Assembly: GCA_903813345.2 (NCBI GenBank)
Contig: CAIIXF020000007.1
Location: 24,477,564-24,541,563 of the forward strand
Direction of reading: 5' to 3'
Origin: Owenia fusiformis
Lineage: Eukaryota > Annelida > Polychaeta > Sabellida > Oweniidae
Length of the DNA stretch: 64,000 nt
Below are positions 2,945-42,161 of the stretch, piece by piece (within the stretch, counting starts at the first letter, position 1; the number at the start of each line of letters is the position of its first letter). The position numbers and the translations under genes were made by a program. The notes beneath the pieces are model-generated. The model was not told the DNA's origin. It was given only the letters and a program-made list of their open reading frames with translations, and searched no databases.

Positions 2945-3890
2945 CTCGAGGAGTTTGCTGCATTTTCTTGTTGATAAAGACACATGTTTTTAAAATCTGT
3001 TTACCTTGTATATGAATTGTGTATCTTGACTAATGAAACATGTCAAAGTTAACATCACACATAAACGCATTTTTCAAAACTATGAATTGGAGGTGCATGG
3101 ATCCCCAAAGCTAGCATGAAGAGTGCGAAGTGAGGCTAATTTTTGAAAGTTTCAAGATGTAGCCTTGTAACAGTCACACATTTGTAAGAGTCTAAAATTT
3201 CCACAAATCATCTTACCTTTCCCAGGAACAACGAAGGAGCATGAAAATGTGCACTTCTTGCATTGTTAGAGTATAATAAAGCTCAAACCATTGTAAATTC
3301 TAAATATTTCATGTCCACATTTTGTTTGCCGGAACTACTTCTAGACTTCCTGATTAATCCTCATGCAAGTTTTGTGACTACACCAAGTGGCATGGATTAT
3401 CACTTGTATGTTTTATCTATAACAGTGTAATTATCATGATAGATACATGATAGAGGCTTTATGAATGATAAACAATGGAAACATGAATGAAGATAACTCT
3501 GGACTAAAAAATAGTTCCAGGAAACAAAATGGTGGACATGAAATATTTAGAATTCACAATGGTTTGAGCTTTATTATACTCTAACAATGCAAGAAGTACA
3601 CATTTTCGTGCTCCTTCGTTGTTCCTTGGTAAGGTAAGACTATATCTAGAAATTTTGAATTCTTGCAAATGTGTGTCTGTTGCAAGGCTACTCCTTGAAA
3701 CTTTCAAAAAATAGCCTCACTTCGCACTCTTCATGCTAGCTTTTGGGAGCCATACACCTCCAATTCATAGTTATGAAAAATGCGTTTAAATGTGAGGTTT
3801 TCTTTTATGTGTCTCTTTAGTCAGGAAATGCATTCACATACAAGGAAAACAGTATACAAAATCTTCTGACTTTATCAAAAAAATATGGCT
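2945..3890. mobile_element. Foldback element with ~380-bp inverted arms
   Basis: The left arm (about 2945-3325) and the right arm (about 3520-3890) are inverted copies. For example, GAGTATAATAAAGCTCAAAC near 3270 matches GTTTGAGCTTTATTATACTC near 3562, and the stretch around CTAGCATGAAGAGTGCGAAG is mirrored near 3725. A spacer of about 190 bp separates the arms. No long frame and no transposase are visible. The arms differ by scattered changes, so the insertion is not recent. Confidence 0.7.
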
Positions 3891-19302: not shown

Positions 19303-19371
19303 ATGATAAAGGCAATACTAGTTTTCAACAATCATGGAAAGCCACGGATGTCAAAGTTTTACCAATATTAT
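19303..19371 (+). CDS. AP3S: AP3S exon 1 (residues 1-23)
   Basis: ATG at 19303 begins the conserved first beta-strand of adaptor small chains, MIKAILVFNNHGKPRMSKFY, and ends at TAT|GTAAGT in phase 0. The human start is MIQAILVFNNHGKPR, so the start is secure. Confidence 0.95.
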
Positions 19372-25300: not shown

Positions 25301-28300
25301 AATGACCAATGTAAAGCTTTTTGAAAATGCATGCCATAAAATTTCATTTCTATAGATCGTAAAATAATCTTAAGTCCAAGAATGTAAAGGAAAATGGCCA
25401 TTGTAAAGCTTTTTGAAAATGCCTGCATAAAAAGTTCACAACTTTGCTTCGTGAAATATTCTAAGTCCAAGAATGTAAAGGAATATGGCCAATGTAAAGC
25501 TTTTTGAAAATGCCTGCATTAAAAGTTCACAACTTTCAATCGTAAAATAATCAAAGTCCAAGAATGTAATGGAATATGGCCATTGTAAAGCTTTTTGAAA
25601 ATGCCTGCATTAAAAGTTCACAACGTTGCTTCTTGAAATATGTGAAGTCCAAGAATGTAAAGGAATATGGCCAATGTAAAGCTTTTTGAAAATGCATGCT
25701 GCAAAAGTTCACCTCTTCAGATCGTAAAATATTCTAATTCCAAGAATGAAGAATGTAAAGGAATATGGCCAATGTAAAGCTTTTTGAAAATACATGCCTT
25801 GAAAGTTATCAAGTATATATAGTAAAATAATCTAAGTCCAAGAATGTAAAGGAATATCGCCAATGTAAAGGTTTTTGAAAATGCATGCTATAAAAGTTCA
25901 CAACTTTCAATCGCAAAATATTCTAGGTCCAAGAATGTAAAGTAAAATGGCCAATGTAAAGCTTTTTGAAAATGCATGCCATAAATTACACTTCTATATA
26001 TCATAAAATAATCTAAGTCCAAGAATGTAAAGGAATATGGCCAATGTAAAGGTTTTTGAAAATGCATGCTTTAAAAGTTAACAACTTTCACTCGCAAAAT
26101 ATTCTAAGTCCAAGAATGTAAAGGAAAATGGCCAATGTAAAGCTTTTTGAAAATGCATGCCATAAATTTCAGTTCTCTATATCGTAAAATAATCTTAGTC
26201 CAAGAATGTAAAGGAAAATGGCCATTGTAAAGCTTTTTGAAAATGCATGCTATAAAAGTTCACAACTTTCAATCGCAAAATAATCTAAGTCCAAGAATGT
26301 AATGGAATTTCGCCAATGTAAAGCTTTTTGAAAATGCCTGCATAAAAAGTTCACAACTTTGCTTCGTGAAATATTCTAAGTCCAAGAATGTAAAGGAATA
26401 TGGCCAATGTAAAGCTTTTTGAAAATGCATGCTGTAAAAGTTCACCTCTTCAGATCGTAAAATATTGTAAGTCCAAGAATGTAAAGGAATATGTCCAATG
26501 TAAAGCTATTTGAAATGCCTGATATAAAAGTTCACAACTTTCAATCGTAAAATAATCAAAGTCCAAGAATGTAATGGAATATCGCCAATGTAAAGCTTTT
26601 TGAAAATACATGCCTTAAAGTTTAAAAGTTCAGTAGGTGGGATGTTTTTAAATTTCTCAACTCGTCATTGTAAAGAAAAAAAGCTTTACTTTAAAATGAC
26701 ATAAATTTTTGTCCCTAAATCTTGACACTGATGGTTTTTTAATAAAACGTTTTAAATTAATTGTCCATTTATGTTATTAAACTAGTATTGAAGTAATGAT
26801 TTCGATTAGTTAAAAGTTTGACACGCGCATGTACATAAGGAGGATTTTAATTTTCAAAATTAGTTCAAAATTTTTTACAAAAATCTCCTAATTACTCATG
26901 AAATACCAAATTACTTCACTAAAAACGTAGCAGAGTGATTTCGGAGCATTCAAAGATAGGGTAGGTGCATAGTTTATCGCAGTTTGCTGCTGCGTCATTA
27001 TAAATACAGGTATGCGTAATGGCCATGATATCATGGCCATTGGGAAAGGCTACGTTGCACATTATCACACAAGGTACTCCCTGGATAATAAGAATTTGGG
27101 CATGCCCTGCAAACAAAGAATTCATAAAGGTGGGTCAGAAATCGAAATGGCCACACCAGTTGACCAGTCTTGATATCATGTGCTCCACAGGAATTTGTCT
27201 AGTATTCGAATATTAAATGATTGACTGCGCATGCGCGCCAATTTAGTCTCCCGCCAAGACAAACCCAATTCTAAGGCAATCCCGATATAGATTACACGGT
27301 TACTCACCTAAGAGTCATCTGCAGCTCTTACTTGTAACCTCTGAGCACTGCTGATTAATCCAGTGGCATCGTTTGTATGAGAGCCAATCTGTGCCAGGTT
27401 CGTTTTTAAGTTCGGTTTTTAGCGCATGCACTTGGAATAAGTATTTAAAATCATTCATAACACAACTGTGCATTGTCTTATCGTCTACAACTTCACTATT
27501 TATTGTGAATTTGAATACAATAAAAAAAAGTTTCTAACCATTTTGCTTACCATTTCTTGAATGTCAAAAATGTAAGAAATGAAAGTACAGATTAGCTTAG
27601 AGAGTTTTCATTGCACTGTTTAAAATCTTTGCATGATTGCGTTGTTTGATATGTGCATATTAACAACTACTTACTTCTCAAACAATGAGCTGGCTAGATG
27701 TGAGAAAGAATATTTTCTTCTCAAAAGTGTACATTTTGCAGTTATTCTTTCTTGTTGAAAACCATGAGACAACGTCGGTGCCCACATGGATGTCTGAGCA
27801 ACCTTCTGTATAATGATATGCAAAAACAGTCAAATTAAATATACCTTTTTATCATCAGATGTCCCTTTCAAATTAGTCAGTCATTGCAAATGTTAAATTC
27901 AGGCACAATGGGAAAAAATGAATTAGACGAATGTCGAATTGGACCAGACTGAATAGGAAAAAGCCAGGGTAATTGTCAGCAAGTTACATAGTTGAAAATC
28001 TGTAGGAACCTAATTTACTTATTTTCTGATTTAAATTTCATGTTTTTCAGCCAGAAGATATGCAGCAACAAATCATAAGGGAGACATTTCATTTAGTATC
28101 AAAGCGGGATGACAATGTGTGCAATTTCTTAGAAGGCGGCAGGTTAGTTGAAGGAACACCGAGTAGTTTAAAAGTTGCATGAGTATTATTATCTGTAGAT
28201 GTTATTCATATTAAATGGTCATAATTGAGTACAAAAGGAGGAGGGAAATTAGCGCAACAGATTTTGGACAGTCATATGTTGGATTTTGGCCATTTTCTGA

Positions 28301-31300
28301 GGATTTACACAATTGCATATGTTAGGCCAATGCATTACCTCCAGGAAAATAACTTCTAGAGATGAGAAAATAATTTCGACTTTGAGACAGGGTAGATGCA
28401 AACAACCCACCCACATGTTTTTTCTGAAATGTTTTCCTAATTTTCGACCCCTTCCATCCCTGCTTTTTTATTTTAATTTTTCTTGCATCAATATATTGCA
28501 TTTTGACACATAGTTAACCCCTTTAAAGGAATAAGTGATTCCTTCAGGGGTTTTAAAGATACCCATTATGGGTGACCAAACTTAGCTGAAAGCAATGCTT
28601 TTTCCTATGGGAAAATAACATGGGAAATATTGTTTTCCACTTTATCTCAAAGGAATCATTTATTCCTTTTAAGGGATGAACTGTGTGTCAAAACGCAACA
28701 TATTGATGCAAGAAAAATTAAAAAAGCAGGGATGGAAGGGGTTGAAAATCAGGAAAACATTTCAGAAAAAACATGTGGGTGGTTGTTTGCATCTACCCTG
28801 TCTCAAAGTGGAAATTATTTTATCAACTCTAGAAGTGATTTTCCTGGAGGTAATGCATTCGCCTAACATATGCACCTGTTTAAATCCCCAGGAAATGGCC
28901 AAAATCAAACATATGACTGTCCAAAATCTGTTGCGCTAACTTCCCTCCTCCTTTGAACATTTTGCTTATTAGATCTTTTTTGGGATCTTAGACCAAGGGG
29001 CAATACAATAACCCTGAGTTTCAATAGAATTCATTCATGACTTTATGTTTTTAATGTGCTGAACTGTTGATACGGCAGAAGGAGATATTGCAGAATGAAC
29101 AAATTTGATTTTTCTGGCATTTTATTTTGGTAGAAATAAGTGGTCACATTTATCTGATTTTGCCATTACTTACAGTAAAAATGAAGTAATAATATTCAAT
29201 TATGCAACAATTATATATTTTACATGTACAGTATATGTAGATTAAAATGTAAGTAAATTACAAAATTAATGTAAGTTGATTAAAGATTTAGATTGAGTAA
29301 TTTGATAAAAAGATTTATGTTCAAACATTTTGAAAAATTGATTTTTTATTGTAATTTTGTGAAACCTAAATAATATGTCTCAGATATTAATTACATCTTT
29401 AACTAATCTTTTCTTTATTGCATAATGAAGTGTTGAAACTTGTAATATATTTATTTGTAATAACCAGCATTTATATGCATGCATCTTTTTATACTAAGCA
29501 TTCTCACATGCTTAAAATTACCCCAAAATCAATGTCTTATTTGCAGTTTAATTGGAGGCTCAGACTACAAGCTAATATATCGGCATTACGCAACATTATA
29601 TTTTGTGTTCTGTGTTGACTCCTCCGAAAGTGAATTGGGAATTTTAGATTTGATCCAGGTAGTATATGCTAGCTTAGTAGGTAGAGCCTATCTCATATTC
29701 CAATGACCATAATACAACTGCTATGATATATATTTTGACTTAAGTTCACGTCCATGATATATTACACAATAATTATAATCCTGAACATTCGATTCAAATG
29801 AAAAGTCAAAAACTAGACTTATGATAATCTAGGATTAGAAAATAAAATGACAGGAAACATAGTCATAGCAAAGAATAGCAAAATAGTTCAATTTAGGAAT
29901 ATGAGTTTGGCCGAGTACTGAGGATGCATTGCTGACTGTTTGGAATTAGCAGCTTATGTTGTGCATATTGTTGATTTTAGGATCATCCTCTATAATTGTT
30001 CATCTATGTTTTGTTGTTGCTTTTTATCAGCTTTATCATTATCAAGAGTTTTCACAAAACTTTTAACTTATATAAAATATGTAAAATGATTTGAACATAA
30101 TCAAAATTGATTTGATTTGTAACATAAATAATTCCCTATATTTATACTGAATGTACTTGTATATAAGTTAAATGCGTTATCAATGAAAACTCAATTACAT
30201 TACATTTTGAAATTATTTTGCACTTCAACAATTTTTCATTGAAACTCACCTATCATATATTCTATTACATGGTATTTATTTGTTCATGTGCTTTTTTTTA
30301 TTTTAAATGTATTATGAGACTGCAAAAGCATATTAATAGATGAGGAATTATGTAGGATGTTAGGTGTGCTGTTTTCTGCTGGCAACATTCATTTCTTAAC
30401 GCTTCACCTCTCACGAGTGCATGATTCGTCAAATACTAGTGAGGAACCACTAACACATAAGTAGCCTTGTTTCAGAATAGTTGAATAATTTAGTTTTATT
30501 TCAGTTTGATAGGTGGCACTGACTGTAAGTTGATATATCGCCACTATGCCACATTATACTTTGTGTTCTGCGTCGATTCCTCTGAAAGTGAGCTGGGAAT
30601 TTTAGACTTAGTTCAGGTATGATTCAACCATTCTGGTAACCATGGTAATAGTCATAAGGAAAAACAATTGTTTGATTATTGCATTATATTCATTATGCTA
30701 TTCATTAAAAAAGCTTGACAAATCTGATATCAAAATAATATTATGTTGTTCAAATAATATATACTCCCCTTAACTAGAGCTAAAGCAGCTGGTACTAAAA
30801 GTAATATAAAATGTAATATTTGTAATTTACCTCCAAACTGCACCTTATGTCTGATGTTTTGTATAAGTTGACATTAATTGCAAAATTGATATATAACGAA
30901 ATGTTCATGTTCTTGATGCTAGTTGTATCAAATCAATTTAATTGTCATGAATACCACCTGATATAAACGCTAGCTAAAGTCATATTAAACACTGGTTGTA
31001 AATACATACATGTTATATCAATCTAGAAGTAAGAAACATTAACTATGAGAAATAGCAAAACATGAAACAGTGTAGAAATCACAATTTTTGTTCATTGATT
31101 ATAAATTGTTCCATAGAGCTTACTGACATTTACGCCATCTTTTCATCAACTGTTTTTCCCTATGGCTGTTTCAAAATGATTTATGGTGGGATATATTAAC
31201 ATACATTAATGCGCATGCCCTTTTGATGTCACAAAATAGAATAAAAAGCTGTGCCAGAATGTTTATAACTTATTACGCAATGTTTATGCTTTTAACTTTT

Positions 31301-34300
31301 CACATTATTGAGAATGACAGAGTTGATTTATATGCTTCATTTAGTTGACATAGAAATTCACAATTTTACTGACCATATTCTGATCACAATAGATTCTGTT
31401 GTAATTCCATATTAATCATCCCTGAGTCAATGTTTCTCTTAAATGCCCTGGGCACTGGAAGCCTTGACTGCCATAGATTTGACATCTAGTACACATTAAT
31501 TGCACAATATTAATATATATTCGTTCAATTTGATTTATGATTTATATATGCAGTATACATATTTTGTTCTTACTTAACTTTGGCTATAATTTATCTATGT
31601 TTCTCAATCATAAGATGAAGGTAAATGATAGCCAATGGATTGCATGAATGTATATTTCTAACCACTTCATTCTAGATATATATTGTTATTCTCATTATGT
31701 GCTGTATTTTGTGTGTGTGGGAATATATAAGCGCATATGCCGAAGGGATAGAAATGCCAGTTGTGCTTTCTCTGGTGCGTTCGAGCGTTAACATCAGCTG
31801 CCTCTAGTCAGATCGACTAACAAAACAACCTTTTTTGGGGTTGTCGAGTTGGCCGAGAGGGCTTGAGCGCCGGCACATTCGAGCTAGGCGATTGGGCGCC
31901 GTAACCACGAGGTTGCGAGTTCATGACGCGTGTGCTCCTTGTGTTTATTCATTTGCTTTGTGTTATATATATTCACTATTAAGATATTCAAATATGATCT
32001 ATTGATAGTTCAATTATCAAATATTATGTTTACATTTTACAGAATTTACATTTCAATGAAACAGATTTGGAACAATGGGGTAGGGTAGAGACTTTCATCA
32101 AGGGAATGGATTAGAATAACATTTGCATTTAGGGGAGGAGTAATGGTAGATTTGCATCAAAGAAAGTTGAAGAAAGGGAAGAGTTGCAAGCATGAAGGAC
32201 AGACCTCATTTCATATAAAATGCACTCAGTTGTTTGAAAAAATATGTTGAATTAGAATATTTTAGACTTCTACATATTGATTTTACCAATTTATCATTCT
32301 AATTGTTTTCTGTTGTGTTGTTCCAGGTTTTTGTTGAGACATTGGATAAGTGCTTCGAGAATGTGTGTGAACTAGATCTCATCTTCCATGTTGATAAGGT
32401 CAGTAGCTACAACTACAGCCATCTATTTCTTTTGCACCCTAAGCTCCATTAGGGGGTCATGGGTTTCTTTCCTTTACAAAACATAAATATGCAGCGATTA
32501 TTGTTACAAAGTTTTAGACGTTGTACAGGTAACATTCTGGGAATTCAAATGATGATTGAAATACATAAATGTGTACATGTGAACTGTATGGGGCACAAAA
32601 AGCCTATTTGACACCTCTGACCCTCACCCTCCTAAACCATTGTGGTTGAGGACTACTCTTATTAGTGCGACCAGTATAAAAATGCTCAGTTGGGGGAGGG
32701 AGTTGACCAAGAGTATTTAGCAGGACCATGGTTTATACCACTTAAAAGGAGTTTCTAAAGTGCTTAAATTTCATTATGTTCATGTTTGGCTCTATTCTGT
32801 GTCTCTAAATAAAAATGCTCAAATCTCATCATGTTCATGTTTGGCTCTATTCAGTGTCTCTAAAAATGCTCAAATCTCATCATGTTCATGTTTGGCTGTA
32901 TTCTGTGTTGCACACGTGTTCTCAGTGTTTCTCACGATTGCGTCGTGGAACAAATCCTTCAAATGTGAATTCATGAACGTATTATCGGGATCCAGAAACG
33001 CCTTGTTACGTATCTTGATGAAATCATCAAAACTGCTTCCATAGTTTTCTTTTAGAAGAGACACCATGCCTGGAATATAGTCGTAGTATTTGCCCCAATG
33101 TGGTAGGATTCTACTGTTGTTGGACATCATACCAGTTGCAAACTGTAAATTAACAAAGCAAATGATAACATTTTTTTGTAGCTCATACAAATATACAAAA
33201 TATTTGTATAAAACAAAGCATACAAATTGATAAAGCCCGATCAGTCATTGATTCTTTGAATATCTCACTTGACTTCACTAAAGTTGATAAAGCTGATGAA
33301 AGGGTTACACTCAATTTTGTTTACACAATCTAGTATGATATAATAGTGTAATAGCTCCAACTATAATCATACGGTACATAAATCCTTATTAATATTTCTT
33401 TAGACATGCGTTCACATAATGAAAATAAGTTCTATTGATATGAACAAATGGAGCCTGTTTAGCAAATCCATCAGTCTTAATATTTCTTTAGACCTGCGTT
33501 CATGTGATGAAAAAAGTTCTATTGATATGAACAAATGGCGCCTGTTTAGCAAATCCATCAGTCGTAATATTTCTTTAGACATGCGTTCACGTGATGAAAA
33601 TAAGTTCTATTGAAATGAACAAATGACGCCTGTTTAGCAAATCCATCAGTCTTAATATTTCTTTAGACATGTATTCACATGATGAAAATAAGTTCTATTT
33701 ACATGAACAAATGGAGCCTGTTTAGCAAATCCATCAGTCTTAATATTTCTTTAGACATGTGTTTACATGATGAAAATAAGTTCTATTGATATGAACAAAT
33801 GGCGCCTGTTTAGCAAATCCATCAGTCTTAAAATTTCTTGAGACATGCGTTCACATGATGAAAATAAGTTATATTAATATGAACAAATGGCGCCTGTCAC
33901 TATAATAAGTCAGAGTTTATATGTTTCACATAATAATGAAATGAAGAACTGATTAACTGACCTGGGTGGACCAAAGTTTGTCCCTGACAGACTCATCCAT
34001 GAAGTGTGTGTTACAGGGTCGACATGCTGGTGTCCATTCTATCTCCATCATCAGCTTGAACTCATTGGCCATCTAATAGTAAACATAAGATTCCAGTCAA
34101 GACTATCTTGTTTAAATGTTCACTCTGAGAGTGTACCTTTTTTATTACATTGTACTTATTGTAACATTATCAAGTATTGTCCAATTTTTAAATTACCAAT
34201 TATTAATATTGGTATAAAGTAAGCTCTTTCTTTTCACTGACATTGAGGTTGGCCATAATCTATTCATTGGTTTTTAAAAAATTTGAGTCTGTTCTTATGT

Positions 34301-40300: not shown

Positions 40301-42161
40301 CATTCATCCCTTTTTATAGGCTTATGCCTTATGGGTGTAGGACCTCTGCTCAAGAAGGAATTTTCAATATGGCCATTCAATTCAAAATGGCCACCATTTT
40401 TCATGAAAAATGTAATCTTTGATAACTCAAATACAAGTTGAGGGATTTGATTCAAATTTTATATGCTGCAGCCTAGAGACAAAGGAGCTTTGCTCAAGAA
40501 GAGATTTTCAAGATGGCTGCTGAATTTCAAAATGGTGGCCATTTTTCGTAAAAAATGTAATCTTTGATAACTCAAATACAAGTTGAGGGATTTGATTCAA
40601 ATGATGCCTAAGGACAAAGTTCGCTCAAGAAGAGATTTTCAAGATGGCTGCAAAATTTCAAAATAGCTGCCATTTTTCGTAAAAAAATGTAATCTATGAT
40701 AACTCAAAAATATCAGTGAACGAATTTGGTTCAGTTTTTGTATGATGATGCCTAGGGACACAGTAGCTCTGTTAGAGAAAGAATTTTCAAGATGGAGGCT
40801 GAATTTCAAAATGCCTGCCATTTTTCATAAAAAAACGTAATCTTAAACTCAAATACCAGTGAACAGATTTGGTTCAAATTTTATATGCTGATGCCTAGGG
40901 ACACAGTAGCTCTGTTCAAGAAAGAATGATGGTGGCTGAATTTCAAAATGGCTGCCATTTTTCAAAAAAACACAATCTTTGATATGGATTGGATGGATTT
41001 GGTAATTTTATATGCTGATATGCTCTGTTCAAGAAGAAACTCTCAAGATGGCCACTATTATCAAAATATGTTTTGTTCGGTGGGATTTGCTACTCTGTGG
41101 AGTTGCCGTTTTTTGTAGTTTGTGACAGTGTCTGATCATCTACTTTTCATTGTCCCTGAAATATTATAATATTGTTGTCAGCTATGCAGGCAGGTTATCT
41201 TTCACAAATTATGCATAAAAGTTAATCTTCTCTTCCCACCTTAAGAAAACTTGAATGTTGACTGATATACCGATGGTATTCCAAGGTCAAAATGTGTAAG
41301 TGCCTTGCCCTTTTGCCCAGCAAAAGTTGATTTGTTTCCTAATTGTTTTCTATATATATTTTGCAGGTGCACTACATCTTAGCAGAGCTATGTATGGGAG
41401 GTATGGTGTTGGAGACAAACATGTCTGAAATAATGACCCGTGTAGAGGAGCAAAATAAATTAGAAAAATCAGAGGTAAGCAACAGGTTTTTGCTGTTTTG
41501 CTATACATGTTTATGTTAGTAATAAAAATAATAGGTTTGGTAAAAGTCCTCGTAAAATTGAAATTTATGTGTCTGAAATAAATGTAAATTGTTTCCACTC
41601 GGCATATTTTGAATTTGAATCATGATATATTAGTTTCATGAAAAAACTGAATAGAATTAGACTACAGGAAGGTTATGCATGTTGTCCATGAATGTAATTG
41701 TTTGACAAATGGCTGCACCGAGTGTCTTACAATTGATTCAAGGATAAACAATGAGCCTTCGGTATTATTATGTGAAGTAATAGCCAAGGGCCTATAGGCT
41801 ATTATTTTCTGACAAGACCCAAGCCGAATGCATTATAATGTATATGATCAGGCCTGTAGCCAGGATTTGCCTAGGGGGGGTTCACTTTTTGAAAAATTCC
41901 AGGTGGTTCACTTGTGACAATTTTGGTCCAAAAATGAATGGCCAAAATCACTTAAAAAGTGACACTACTCAACATTTTAGTACAATTCAAATTCTTTGTG
42001 ATGAAATCCAACATTGAACGTAAATGCAGTGTTACCTTCTATGTTTTCAGGCTGGCATTTCAGCAGCTCCAGCACGTGCAGTATCAGCCGTTAAAGAAAT
42101 GAACATTCCACAGAAATTTAAAGACATGAAACTACCAGACTTACCTAACTTAAAGTTCTAG
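19303..42161 (+). CDS. AP3S: AP-3 complex sigma subunit, complete gene with duplicated exon 3
   Basis: The sigma (small) chain of the AP-3 adaptor, which sorts membrane proteins from endosomes/TGN to lysosomes and lysosome-related organelles. Exons: 19303-19371, 28051-28142, then either 29547-29658 or 30505-30616, then 32327-32398, 41367-41474 and 42051-42161. All junctions are GT-AG and all phases agree. The product is 187 residues, close to human AP3S1/AP3S2 (193). It begins MIKAILVFNNHGKPR and keeps ETFHLVSKRDDNVCNFLEGG, ETLDKCFENVCELDLIFH and the AP3S-specific tail SAAPARAVSAVK. Intron 1 (8.7 kb) holds the giant inverted array; intron 4 (9 kb) holds an antisense oxidase gene. It cannot be assigned to vertebrate S1 or S2; a single pre-duplication orthologue is likely. 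Confidence 0.95.
19461..19486. repeat. Perfect 11-bp-arm hairpin in AP3S intron 1
   Basis: AGATGTCCCTA, loop GTAG, TAGGGACATCT. It begins about 90 bp after the exon 1 donor. It is too short to assign a role. Confidence 0.4.
19880..20015 (+). repeat. Short degenerate tandem repeat with AGCTCATGAAAAT words
   Basis: About five imperfect units of roughly 25-30 bp built on AAGCTCATGAAAAT.AAGAGCT. Lies in AP3S intron 1 before the large inverted array. Confidence 0.45.
20600..23310 (+). repeat. Left tandem array, ~30 units of ~90 bp
   Basis: The core TTTCAAAAAGCTTTACATTG recurs with spacings of 90-91 bp (for example 20611, 20701, 20792, 20883, 20974). Each unit continues with TTCCTTTACATTCTTGGACT and an AATATTTTACGATC block. 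Units alternate between a few subtypes (GGCATGCATTTTC versus TTTATGCAGGCATTTTC). Short frames reading FQKALHWPYSFTFLDL are the repeat translated and not genes. Confidence 0.88.
23311..24104. other. Central spacer of the giant inverted element
   Basis: Single-copy-looking sequence without a convincing coding frame; the minus-strand frame at 23567-23764 has no family resemblance. This would be the loop of a hairpin transcript. Confidence 0.5.
24105..26620 (-). repeat. Right tandem array, ~28 units of ~90 bp in inverse orientation
   Basis: The inverse core CAATGTAAAGCTTTTTGAAA recurs about every 90 bp, alternating with AGTCCAAGAATGTAAAGGAA, and mirrors the left array unit type for unit type near the ends. 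A TATATATATATA insertion interrupts one unit near 24570. Confidence 0.88.
26728..28050. other. AP3S intron 1, 3' part
   Basis: No gene recognised. Contains a perfect 24-bp palindrome at 27018-27041 (AATGGCCATGAT and its mirror) and ordinary AT-rich intron sequence. Confidence 0.45.
28051..28142 (+). CDS. AP3S: AP3S exon 2 (residues 24-54)
   Basis: Acceptor TGTTTTTCAG, donor AG|GTTAGT. Encodes PEDMQQQIIRETFHLVSKRD and DNVCNFLEGG, then two bases (AG) of the Ser codon completed by the T that opens either exon 3. Confidence 0.95.
28231..28956. mobile_element. Foldback element with ~320-bp arms in AP3S intron 2
   Basis: Outer ends ACAAAAGGAGGAGGGAAATT and the mirrored AACTTCCCTCCTCCTTTGAA frame two long inverted arms, about 28231-28555 and 28640-28956. 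Within them TTGATGCAAGAAAAATTAAA near 28692 mirrors the stretch near 28480, and the ACAGGGTAGATGCAAACAAC block is present in both. The short loop includes TTTTCCTATGGGAAAA. Arms are similar enough for small frames to appear on the plus strand; these are not genes. Confidence 0.72.
29547..29658 (+). CDS. AP3S: AP3S exon 3a (residues 55-91, first alternative)
   Basis: 112 bp, acceptor TTATTTGCAG, donor CAG|GTAGTA. Encodes LIGGSDYKLIYRHYATLYF and then VFCVDSSESELGILDLIQ, identical in sequence to the human AP-3 sigma segment as I know it. This part forms central strands of the longin-like fold and, by analogy with AP-2 sigma, includes residues of the dileucine-motif pocket (ATLYF). Confidence 0.95.
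30505..30616 (+). CDS. AP3S: AP3S exon 3b (residues 55-91, second alternative)
   Basis: Also exactly 112 bp with acceptor TTATTTCAG and donor CAG|GTATGA. It encodes LIGGTDCKLIYRHYATLYF and VFCVDSSESELGILDLVQ, differing from exon 3a by Ser59Thr, Tyr61Cys and Ile90Val only. By my count 24 of 112 bases differ, in 20 codons, of which 17 changes are silent. That pattern indicates selection on the protein, so this is a used exon and not a decaying copy. Because 112 is not a multiple of three, including both exons or neither would shift the frame. Confidence 0.9.
30617..31840. other. AP3S intron 3, no other gene seen
   Basis: AT-rich intronic sequence after exon 3b. No coding segment recognised. 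Confidence 0.4.
31841..31937 (+). repeat. tRNA-like (class II) sequence, probably a SINE head
   Basis: TTGGCCGAGAGGGCTTGA looks like the D-arm and A-box of Leu/Ser tRNAs, and about 55 bases later GGTTGCGAGTTC looks like a B-box with one extra base. The acceptor ends do not pair and no proper anticodon arm forms, so it is not a working tRNA gene. A tRNA-derived SINE or pseudogene inside AP3S intron 3 is the best reading. Confidence 0.45.
32327..32398 (+). CDS. AP3S: AP3S exon 4 (residues 92-115)
   Basis: 72 bp, phase 0 on both sides; acceptor TTGTTCCAG, donor AAG|GTCAGT. Encodes VFVETLDKCFENVCELDLIF plus HVDK, the helix and strand typical of all adaptor sigma chains. Confidence 0.95.
32766..32912. 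repeat. Three tandem ~51-55-bp units overlapping the oxidase stop codon
   Basis: Units beginning AAATYTCATYATGTTCATG start at 32766, 32821 and 32872, each continuing TTTGGCTSTATTC. The rightmost unit is coding on the minus strand: it encodes the last residues and stop of the FAD-linked oxidase. The two others lie in its 3' UTR. Confidence 0.75.
32870..33142 (-). CDS. Oxidase exon 9, C-terminal domain and stop (residues 402-491)
   Basis: Acceptor AATTTACAG. Contains the family signature LPHWGKYYDY and the C-terminal IRNKAFLDPDNTFMNSHLKD. The last ~20 residues (Asn/Thr/His/Glu-rich) extend past the usual family end and overlap a tandem repeat unit. Confidence 0.9.
   Translation of the reverse strand, partial: FATGMMSNNSRILPHWGKYYDYIPGMVSLLKENYGSSFDDFIKIRNKAFLDPDNTFMNSHLKDLFHDAIVRNTENTCATQNTAKHEHDEI
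32870..38519 (-). CDS. Secreted FAD-linked oxidase (GLO/ALO family), complete nine-exon gene nested in AP3S intron 4
   Basis: Exons on the minus strand: 38496-38519, 38052-38201, 37663-37812, 36665-36805, 36199-36366, 35557-35783, 35032-35263, 33962-34072, 32870-33142. All borders are GT-AG, all phases agree, and the product is 491 residues. Exons 1 and 2 together give a signal peptide, MLWFCSTLLFIPMVMCG. An FAD-binding (VAO/PCMH-type) domain covers about 45-220, with VRAVGSKHSWSPIYADNG, where His80 is placed like the flavin-linked histidine of gulonolactone oxidase. The C-terminal sugar-lactone oxidase domain has LPHWGK (414-419) and LDPDNTFMNSHLKDLF. Known relatives oxidise aldonolactones to ascorbate-type products; the substrate here is unknown. 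Gulonolactone oxidase is membrane-bound in the ER, whereas this one seems soluble and secreted. Confidence 0.85.
33395..33900. repeat. Six tandem ~88-bp units
   Basis: AGACATGCGTTCACATGATG-type starts occur at about 33402, 33490, 33578, 33666, 33754 and 33842. Each is followed by AAGTTCTATTGATATGAACA and GCCTGTTTAGCAAATCCATC. They lie in the intron between oxidase exons 8 and 9, so also inside AP3S intron 4. Small plus-strand frames here are artefacts of the repeat. Confidence 0.85.
33962..34072 (-). CDS. Oxidase exon 8 (residues 365-401)
   Basis: Acceptor ACTATTAG, donor CAG|GTCAGT; 37 codons in phase 0. Encodes ANEFKLMMEIEWTPACRPCN and DESVRDKLWSTQ. Confidence 0.83.
35032..35263 (-). CDS. 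Oxidase exon 7 (residues 287-364)
   Basis: Acceptor ATTCAATAG, donor GAG|GTGAAT. Encodes VTSDYRWASESILFPAWVAE and ITLRWNVAWATPESEDF, part of the substrate-side domain. Confidence 0.83.
35557..35783 (-). CDS. Oxidase exon 6 (residues 212-286)
   Basis: Acceptor CAATTTCAG, donor TG|GTATGAG. The donor was chosen over an earlier GTGTATGG because it restores the phase of exon 7 (TG|G gives Trp). Encodes VVQDRVFKF, NNYGVLLLWKTFSG and RPPNTWRAANDY. Confidence 0.8.
35980..36096. mobile_element. Short MITE with ACTGGCGGATCCAG ends
   Basis: CACTGGCGGATCCAG at the left and CTGGATCCGCCAGTG at the right enclose about 90 bp. Similar TGGCGGATCCAG ends are known on small non-autonomous DNA transposons in many animals. 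Lies in the intron between oxidase exons 5 and 6. Confidence 0.7.
36199..36366 (-). CDS. Oxidase exon 5 (residues 156-211)
   Basis: Acceptor TACTGTAG, donor AAG|GTAACA. Joins as TSAH|GS to give a GTHGS-like site, then VYGLDLVDSSGRVRHFNDDD and VHVGMCGIIYNTTVK, where the family typically has a small-residue-rich LG..G(I/V) block. Confidence 0.88.
36665..36805 (-). CDS. Oxidase exon 4 (residues 109-155)
   Basis: Acceptor TGTTTAAG, donor CAT|GTAAGT. Encodes VSSLASATIEELLKFKTQHG and PSVSNVDIPTLQGVTATSAH, the PP-loop region (compare the D.QT.AG...GTHG pattern of the family). Confidence 0.87.
37663..37812 (-). CDS. Oxidase exon 3 (residues 59-108, flavin-binding histidine)
   Basis: Acceptor ACTTTTAG, donor AAA|GTAAGT. 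Contains VRAVGSKHSWSPIYADNG and IALDLSQLEGKKFTID. The KHS at 79-81 stands where gulonolactone oxidases have GHS with the covalent FAD histidine. Confidence 0.88.
38052..38201 (-). CDS. Oxidase exon 2 (residues 9-58)
   Basis: Acceptor ATGTTTAG, donor CAA|GTTAGT. Gives the second half of the signal peptide, a linker QPTVEELSHLIGYDIE, and the start of the FAD domain with WARPTSVEQ, like the P-T-S-xE-Q entry helix of FAD_binding_4 proteins. Confidence 0.85.
38496..38519 (-). CDS. Oxidase exon 1 (residues 1-8, signal peptide start)
   Basis: ATG CTT TGG TTT TGC AGC ACA CTT followed by the donor GTGAGTATG. A 24-bp coding exon, accepted because it has a strong donor, is in phase with exon 2 and completes a hydrophobic signal peptide with LFIPMVMCG. 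Confidence 0.7.
38848..39480. mobile_element. MITE with ~110-bp inverted ends, upstream of the oxidase gene
   Basis: Left 38850-38965 (CTACAGCAAAAAATACATAATG, then TTTAATTCTGGAGTTACCT) is mirrored at 39370-39478, whose outer end is GACACCCTGTA. The same terminal sequence family (TACAGGGTGTCAAA...CTACAGCAAAAA) bounds the element at 61894-62506. A lone TACAGGGTGGGCC end lies at 38633. The element begins about 330 bp before the oxidase start codon and so is in or near its promoter. Confidence 0.68.
39481..40212. other. AP3S intron 4, no gene recognised
   Basis: AT-rich, stop-rich; nothing that I can define. Confidence 0.4.
40213..41115 (-). repeat. Interspersed repeat, same family as 1258-2035 (copy D, inverted)
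   Basis: Read on the minus strand it opens near 41113 with ACGGCAACTCCACAGAGTAG and CCCACCGAACAAA, and ends near 40220 with GGACGGAC-like tail, CTATATCCC and TTCGATTGGATAA. Inside are about five direct repeats of ~120 bp with TTCAAGATGGCTGC, AAATTTCAAAATGGCTGCCA and AACTCAAATAC. Lies in AP3S intron 4. Confidence 0.62.
41367..41474 (+). CDS. AP3S: AP3S exon 5 (residues 116-151)
   Basis: 108 bp, phase 0; acceptor ATTTTGCAG, donor GAG|GTAAGC. Encodes VHYILAELCMGGMVLETNMS and then EIMTRVEEQNKLEKSE, matching the AP3S-type GGMVLETNM block. Confidence 0.95.
42051..42161 (+). CDS. AP3S: AP3S exon 6, C-terminus and stop (residues 152-187)
   Basis: Acceptor ATGTTTTCAG. Encodes AGISAAPARAVSAVKEMNIP and a short lysine-, proline- and leucine-rich tail ending LPNLKF, then TAG at 42159-42161. 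The SAAPARAVSAVK block is diagnostic of AP-3 sigma as against the sigma chains of AP-1, AP-2 and AP-4. The 3' UTR follows; its end is not defined here. Confidence 0.95.
   Translation, partial: AGISAAPARAVSAVKEMNIPQKFKDMKLPDLPNLKF

Follow-up and report, generated by a model that had tools for sequence, protein, structure and literature searches.

How does one gene for the sigma chain of the AP-3 adaptor come to hold two versions of the same internal exon, and what would choosing between them change in the protein? The question is raised by a 64,000-nucleotide stretch of the Owenia fusiformis genome (the window), whose plus strand contains a complete AP-3 sigma gene with six coding positions, the third filled by either exon 3a or exon 3b (Table 1). 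Exon 3a translates to LIGGSDYKLIYRHYATLYFVFCVDSSESELGILDLIQ and exon 3b to LIGGTDCKLIYRHYATLYFVFCVDSSESELGILDLVQ. Both copies score above the cut-off as Clat_adaptor_s (PF01217), and the best PDB match of each is AP-3 sigma-1 (AP3S1), followed by a fungal-type AP sigma (7p3x), AP-2, AP-4, and AP-1; exon 4 likewise finds AP-3 sigma-1 first. As predicted from its exons, the gene is that of the AP-3 sigma subunit, closest to AP3S1. Genome-wide searches covered the animal's own assembly (498 Mb, 525 contigs, at least twelve of which reach several Mb) and found one sigma3 gene and no exon 3 copies besides 3a and 3b, although assembly gaps or withheld stretches could hide others of either kind. Within the window, no convincing third copy was found, the next matches having E values of at least 0.26.

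Table 1. Coding exons of the AP-3 sigma gene, the possible stem around exon 3b, and further coat genes with duplicated exons. Positions are those of the window unless a prefix is given.
Feature	Position	Strand	Remarks
AP-3 sigma exon 1	19303..19371	+	MIKAILVFNNHGKPRMSKFYQYY; translation and GTAAGT donor
AP-3 sigma exon 2	28051..28142	+	PEDMQQQ...NFLEGG and AG of split Ser
AP-3 sigma exon 3a	29547..29658	+	36/37 residues as in mammalian AP3S1 55-91
Possible stem, 5' arm	30473..30486	+	14 bp, one mismatch, encloses exon 3b; weak candidate
AP-3 sigma exon 3b	30505..30616	+	34/37 residues as in mammalian AP3S1 55-91
Possible stem, 3' arm	30622..30635	+	begins 5 nt into intron after exon 3b
AP-3 sigma exon 4	32327..32398	+	24/24 residues as in mammalian AP3S1 92-115
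AP-3 sigma exon 5	41367..41474	+	VHYILAELCMGGMVLETNMSEIM...EKSE
AP-3 sigma exon 6	42051..42161	+	C-terminal tail, AGISAAPARAVSAVKEMNIPQKFKDMKLPDLPNLKF, and stop
AP-2 mu2-like gene	C1:28441000-28449000	-	nearest solved relatives AP-2 mu
AP-1 mu-1-like gene	C1:53159000-53171000		nearest AP-1 mu-1
SAR1-like gene	C9:13847400-13853000		nearest SAR1
ARF1-like gene	C7:12202500-12210500 and 12212500-12216000		nearest ARF1

An earlier, sequence-only reading of this stretch had described twin 112-bp exons of the same phase, 846 bp apart, and their coordinates, lengths, phase, borders, and spacing were all confirmed. Each copy is entered in a split serine codon (AG before the junction, T after it), is left at a codon end, and has AG/GT borders. 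Our recount also agreed with the reported 24 differing bases (of 112) in 20 codons, 17 of them changed silently, and with S59T, Y61C, and I90V (mammalian AP3S1 numbering) as the only residue changes; 34 of 37 residues are identical. The differences, which amount to a divergence of 21%, fall 19 times at the third codon position, four times at the first, and once at the second, and 18 are transitions. Judged by its residues, 3a is the more ancestral-looking copy, because 36 of 37 match mammalian AP3S1, against 34 of 37 in 3b. At position 61 mammalian AP3S1 differs from both, having N where 3a has Y and 3b has C.

The proposal that the pair has been under purifying selection held up when the dN/dS comparison was run, with a dN of ∼0.035 to 0.039 and a dS of ∼0.90 to 1.06 (YN00 and LWL85); NG86 gave a dN of 0.034 and a saturated dS. 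With few codons the bootstrap was unstable, 263 of 400 YN00 and 180 of 400 LWL85 replicates returning no estimate, and the remaining replicates placed the 95% range of omega at 0.012 to 0.20 (YN00) and 0.003 to 0.087 (LWL85). Under a neutral null in which all 24 changes were unconstrained, a mean of 14.3 amino acid changes was produced, and three or fewer arose in none of 100,000 trials. When only one exon was set free, the probability of three or fewer replacements was 0.003 for 12 free changes, 0.018 for 10, 0.086 for 8, and 0.32 for 6. Prolonged freedom of either copy is thus rejected, while a recent release of one would be compatible with the data, because 8 and 6 free changes remain within reach. 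The latter bears on the possibility that exon 3b is a decaying copy whose use was lost recently. Up to ∼8 free changes suit such a history (P = 0.086), as does the departure of 3b from mammalian AP3S1 at three residues and of 3a at one; yet the frame of 3b is open, its borders are intact, its changes are mostly conservative, and 12 free changes are already too many (P = 0.003). We consider it highly improbable that 3b is decaying.

A trivial source of twin exons would be an error of assembly, for example collapsed haplotypes placed side by side, but nothing turned up in its favor. The introns around the two copies were compared directly: in ungapped alignment, 18 of 60 positions are identical on each side, which is no likeness, and gapped local scores of the 200-nt flanks were no better than those of shuffles (P = 0.95 and 0.80). 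Flanks so unrelated argue against both a recent copy and a haplotype artifact. With the flanking introns unrelated as far as tested and the exons 21% diverged, we regard the chance of an artifact as next to negligible. Intron 2 contains, before exon 3a, a near-palindromic inverted repeat at positions 28234-28954 (84% over 739 aligned bases). It has relatives on many contigs, 40 of 1577 first-look candidates having been scored, and looks like a foldback-type mobile element.

Use of both exons or of neither had been expected to disrupt the frame, and an in-frame stop was confirmed in each case. The length of exon 3 is 1 modulo 3; joining 3a to 3b creates a TGA at 30520-30522, and joining exon 2 to exon 4 creates a TAG at 32373-32375. 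That splicing picks one of the two exons, as the sequence-only reading had deduced, is supported as a prediction. In the available text of PMC3228551, mutually exclusive exons are predicted from three properties: they are alike in length, they keep the same splice pattern and frame, and they are homologous. The 3a/3b pair agrees in all three, its two exons also encoding a homologous segment. Mutually exclusive splicing is accordingly offered, as a prediction, as the best explanation of 3a and 3b.

The stops that both and neither would bring could also serve another purpose, in which one copy would be mainly a poison exon and extra inclusion or double skipping would tune the level of AP-3 sigma via nonsense-mediated decay. 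Regulation of this kind does not need the amino acids to be conserved, yet silent change accounts for 17 of the 20 codons that differ, and not one of the 100,000 trials with 24 free changes ended with three replacements or fewer. A poison exon is, in our estimate, very unlikely.

We asked what might enforce the predicted exclusivity, and no sequence feature that would do so was found for sigma3; both exons have ordinary AG/GT borders. Steric hindrance, by an intron below the splicing minimum, is ruled out by the 846-nt GT-AG intron between 3a and 3b. The duplex search took in the flanks of exons 2, 3a, 3b, and 4, with a random-position background for 3a and 3b, and returned the possible stem around exon 3b (Table 1). 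None of 500 shuffles reached this stem with 40-nt flanks; with 60-nt flanks 4.8% of shuffles did, and with 100-nt flanks 6.8%. At random window positions it was equalled by 4 to 6% (35- to 50-nt flanks) or 14 to 15% (30- or 60-nt flanks), and against the window background this stem is too ordinary to be claimed as a device of exclusivity. The motif TGCATG, the Rbfox word, lies at 29476 and 30418, 71 nt upstream of 3a and 87 nt upstream of 3b. As a basis of exon choice it was rejected: it has 28 copies on the plus strand of the window and is present before both exons. Downstream of exon 3b, a stretch at 31840-31935 appears tRNA-like by eye and is possibly the head of a SINE; ARAGORN and Rfam did not call it, and over the whole window ARAGORN found no tRNA genes and Rfam no match at gathering score. 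A COX1 search also came back empty.

Reading the locus as a whole, we favor, with a probability of about 0.83, an old tandem duplication of exon 3 in a single AP-3 sigma gene, both coding copies having been kept and exactly one being spliced in. The duplication would have occurred within the one gene and would be old, with silent divergence near one substitution per site and introns that lack detectable likeness. Both copies would have stayed coding, each transcript taking exactly one, and the choice between them may be regulated by cell type or stage. Transcripts with double inclusion or skipping would presumably be cleared by nonsense-mediated decay. Retention would be owed mainly to a division of labor in splicing control, with 3a ancestral-like and 3b slightly altered (T59, C61, and V90).

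The protein consequences of the choice were assessed against the dileucine pocket of AP-2 sigma. Among the sigma2 residues that the available part of PMC3901399 places around both leucines of a bound dileucine signal are Y62, A63, L65, F67, and H85, and all five fall in the exon 3 stretch (alignment offset, +6). The claim that exon 3 covers part of such a pocket, made by analogy, is confirmed by this alignment. The second part of the claim, that the gene gives two cargo-adaptor isoforms, is not supported, since no pocket-equivalent residue of exon 3 changes: the sigma3 equivalents Y68, A69, L71, F73, and Q91 are the same in 3a and 3b (0/5 differ). I90V adjoins Q91, the equivalent of sigma2 H85, and S59T and Y61C precede the pocket residues. 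Further sigma2 leucine contacts in the same part of that source, V88, E89, L91, N92, V98, and L103, map to constant exon 4. Because the pocket-equivalent residues are identical in both exons, the two predicted isoforms should be near-interchangeable for dileucine binding. Any difference between them in the cargo pocket is probably small, and in packing or in contacts with partners it should be subtle at most.

It could still be argued that, in addition to being exclusive, the isoforms differ in function as cargo adaptors and that the three changes alter dileucine-signal selection. Such an argument can appeal to how few the changes are, with I90 next to Q91, the position of the listed contact H85, and to COQ-2, in which, according to the available text of PMC7434440, two residue changes close to the active site are invariant between the exchanged exons. 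Against this stand the absence of any difference at the five exon 3 pocket equivalents and the location of the other listed leucine contacts in constant exon 4, and we think a functional difference of this kind quite improbable.

Two sigma3 chains had been attributed to two genes in vertebrates, which is supported in mammals by the available text of PMC13415926: sigma3A comes from AP3S1 and sigma3B from AP3S2. In the assay in that text, cells carrying edits in both AP3S1 and AP3S2 were rescued with AP3S2 cDNA. Mammals, on that account, have two similar sigma3 chains, as would O. fusiformis, but there from two genes and here from two exons. Should both sigma3 isoforms be in use, splicing of a single gene achieves what in mammals takes two genes, AP3S1 and AP3S2.

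Mutually exclusive tandem exons are already well known as a kind. Human pairs with few, mostly conservative changes are described in the available text of PMC9741552, and the pairs treated in the available portions of PMC3228551 and PMC9741552 share with 3a/3b the same length, phase, and protein segment, the present pair being a prediction from sequence. AP3, AP2, and adaptor are absent from the main text of PMC9741552 as available, and AP-3 and clathrin are absent from that of PMC3228551. The heterotrimeric G-protein alpha genes of cephalochordates and fishes also contain mutually exclusive exons. By the available account (PMC5896119), which discusses them alongside vertebrate gene duplications, single exons were duplicated locally and independently in a number of these related genes, a situation comparable to the one here; they differ in being another gene family, with the swapped exons around functional and protein-interface regions. 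In coq-2 of helminths, annelids, and molluscs, the accessible text of PMC7434440 reports mutually exclusive exons and, as for sigma3, one protein with two isoforms by a swapped exon. Every e-type exon examined there has a switch of two residues close to the active site, whereas the sigma3 pocket equivalents are unchanged. The part of PMC12337383 available describes mutually exclusive exons for other genes of the rat, and it names Agap1 as an AP-3 partner. Among the matches listed from the open-licence literature, no paper reports mutually exclusive exons for any AP subunit gene, sigma and mu included.

Twin exons were also found in other coat genes of the assembly (Table 1). The AP-2 mu2-like gene has a pair of 139 and 142 bp, at reverse-complement offsets 3020-3159 and 3216-3358 of its tabulated interval. 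Of 138 bases 43 differ, as do 10 residues, and the frame is lost when both exons are used or both are skipped. Only 57 nt separate the two, and among the pairs measured a very short intervening intron occurs in mu2 only; it should hinder joining both exons. In OGDH, the intron between exons 4a and 4b has its branch points close to the donor (PMC7969005, available part), an arrangement comparable in principle to the mu2 pair (57 nt) but not simply to sigma3 (846 nt). The mu2 and sigma3 introns would make two routes to exclusivity comparable in one pathway. The AP-1 mu-1-like gene has two pairs. The internal exons, of 143 bp each, are separated by 1769 nt and differ in 39 of 144 bases and 7 residues; the other pair consists of alternative last coding exons, each with 93 coding bases, which are separated by 2102 nt and differ in 24 bases and 5 residues. 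For the mu2 pair and both mu1 pairs, full freedom was rejected (0 of 20,000 trials each), and half freedom gave P values of 0.015 for mu2 and of 0.001 and 0.012 for mu1.

The SAR1-like gene carries 120-bp twin exons, both with the P-loop GLDNAGKTTLL, that differ in 43 of 117 bases and 11 residues; because their length is divisible by three, the frame permits both. In the ARF1-like gene each of the last two coding exons is duplicated, with distances of 1.6 and 6.6 kb between copies. The copies differ in 20 of 123 bases (6 residues) and in 10 of 162 bases (4 residues). Full freedom had P values of 0.0000 for Sar1 and of 0.0001 and 0.016 for Arf1 (10,000 trials), and half freedom was not rejected for either gene (Sar1, P = 0.18; Arf1, P = 0.35 and 0.75). 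Evidence of constraint is weaker for the Sar1 and Arf1 pairs than for mu1, mu2, and sigma3. The Arf1 exon 5 copies are nearly identical, and their duplication looks young because the 118 bp downstream also share 69%. Together, the sigma3, mu1, mu2, Sar1, and Arf1 pairs offer a natural test of why coat isoforms so nearly identical are retained: for the function of the protein, or for the place and time of its expression. It is conceivable, though we hold it to be unlikely, that vesicle coats diversified by splicing and not by gene number, the exon choices of mu1, mu2, sigma3, Arf1, and Sar1 being coregulated into two coordinated coat sets across tissues.

A possible leaning toward coat genes was gauged with control families. 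Pairs were called on the same strand, within 20 kb, and with at least 60% profile overlap among the 352 matches listed from eight family searches. The adaptor and Arf families (PF01217, PF00928, PF01602, and PF00025) formed 68 clusters, at least one gene being counted twice, and the control families (proteasome, CCT, Sec1, and DEAD) formed 70. Five genes among the adaptor and Arf clusters have pairs that we read as exon duplications; the PF01602 search for large chains gave no pair in its 11 clusters, and two of the three PF01217 pairs were set aside as over-extensions of the sigma exon 4 match. Same-stretch pairs in the control clusters numbered four, and none of them consisted of diverged exons. 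Two of these, the proteasome pair and one CCT pair, were near-identical short tandem copies; such partial copies, in a CCT exon and a proteasome exon, are young duplications in housekeeping genes. The second CCT pair was an over-extended match that runs into the intron and is unlike the other exon, and the DEAD pair joined two different helicase segments, which we take to be the two cassettes of BRR2. Diverged pairs in 5 of 68 versus 0 of 70 clusters give a one-sided Fisher P value of 0.027 (0.055 without sigma3), a comparison in which families are nonrandom, clusters are not exactly genes, 47 of 149 DEAD candidates were scored, the Arf1 exon 5 copies are little diverged, and Sec1, without a pair, is itself a trafficking family. 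The lean of twin exons toward coat genes is no more than suggestive.

Other features of the window include an open frame on the minus strand at 32870-33244, within the intron that separates exon 4 of sigma from exon 5, that matches D-arabinono-1,4-lactone oxidase (PF04030). This nested gene perhaps continues to about 35807, which is a guess, and a second open frame nearby has no Pfam match. Also on the minus strand, an open frame at 9377-9694 matches cysteine dioxygenase type I (PF05995), and a single open frame of 416 residues at 55951-57201 matches the rhodopsin-family receptors (PF00001, also PF10324).
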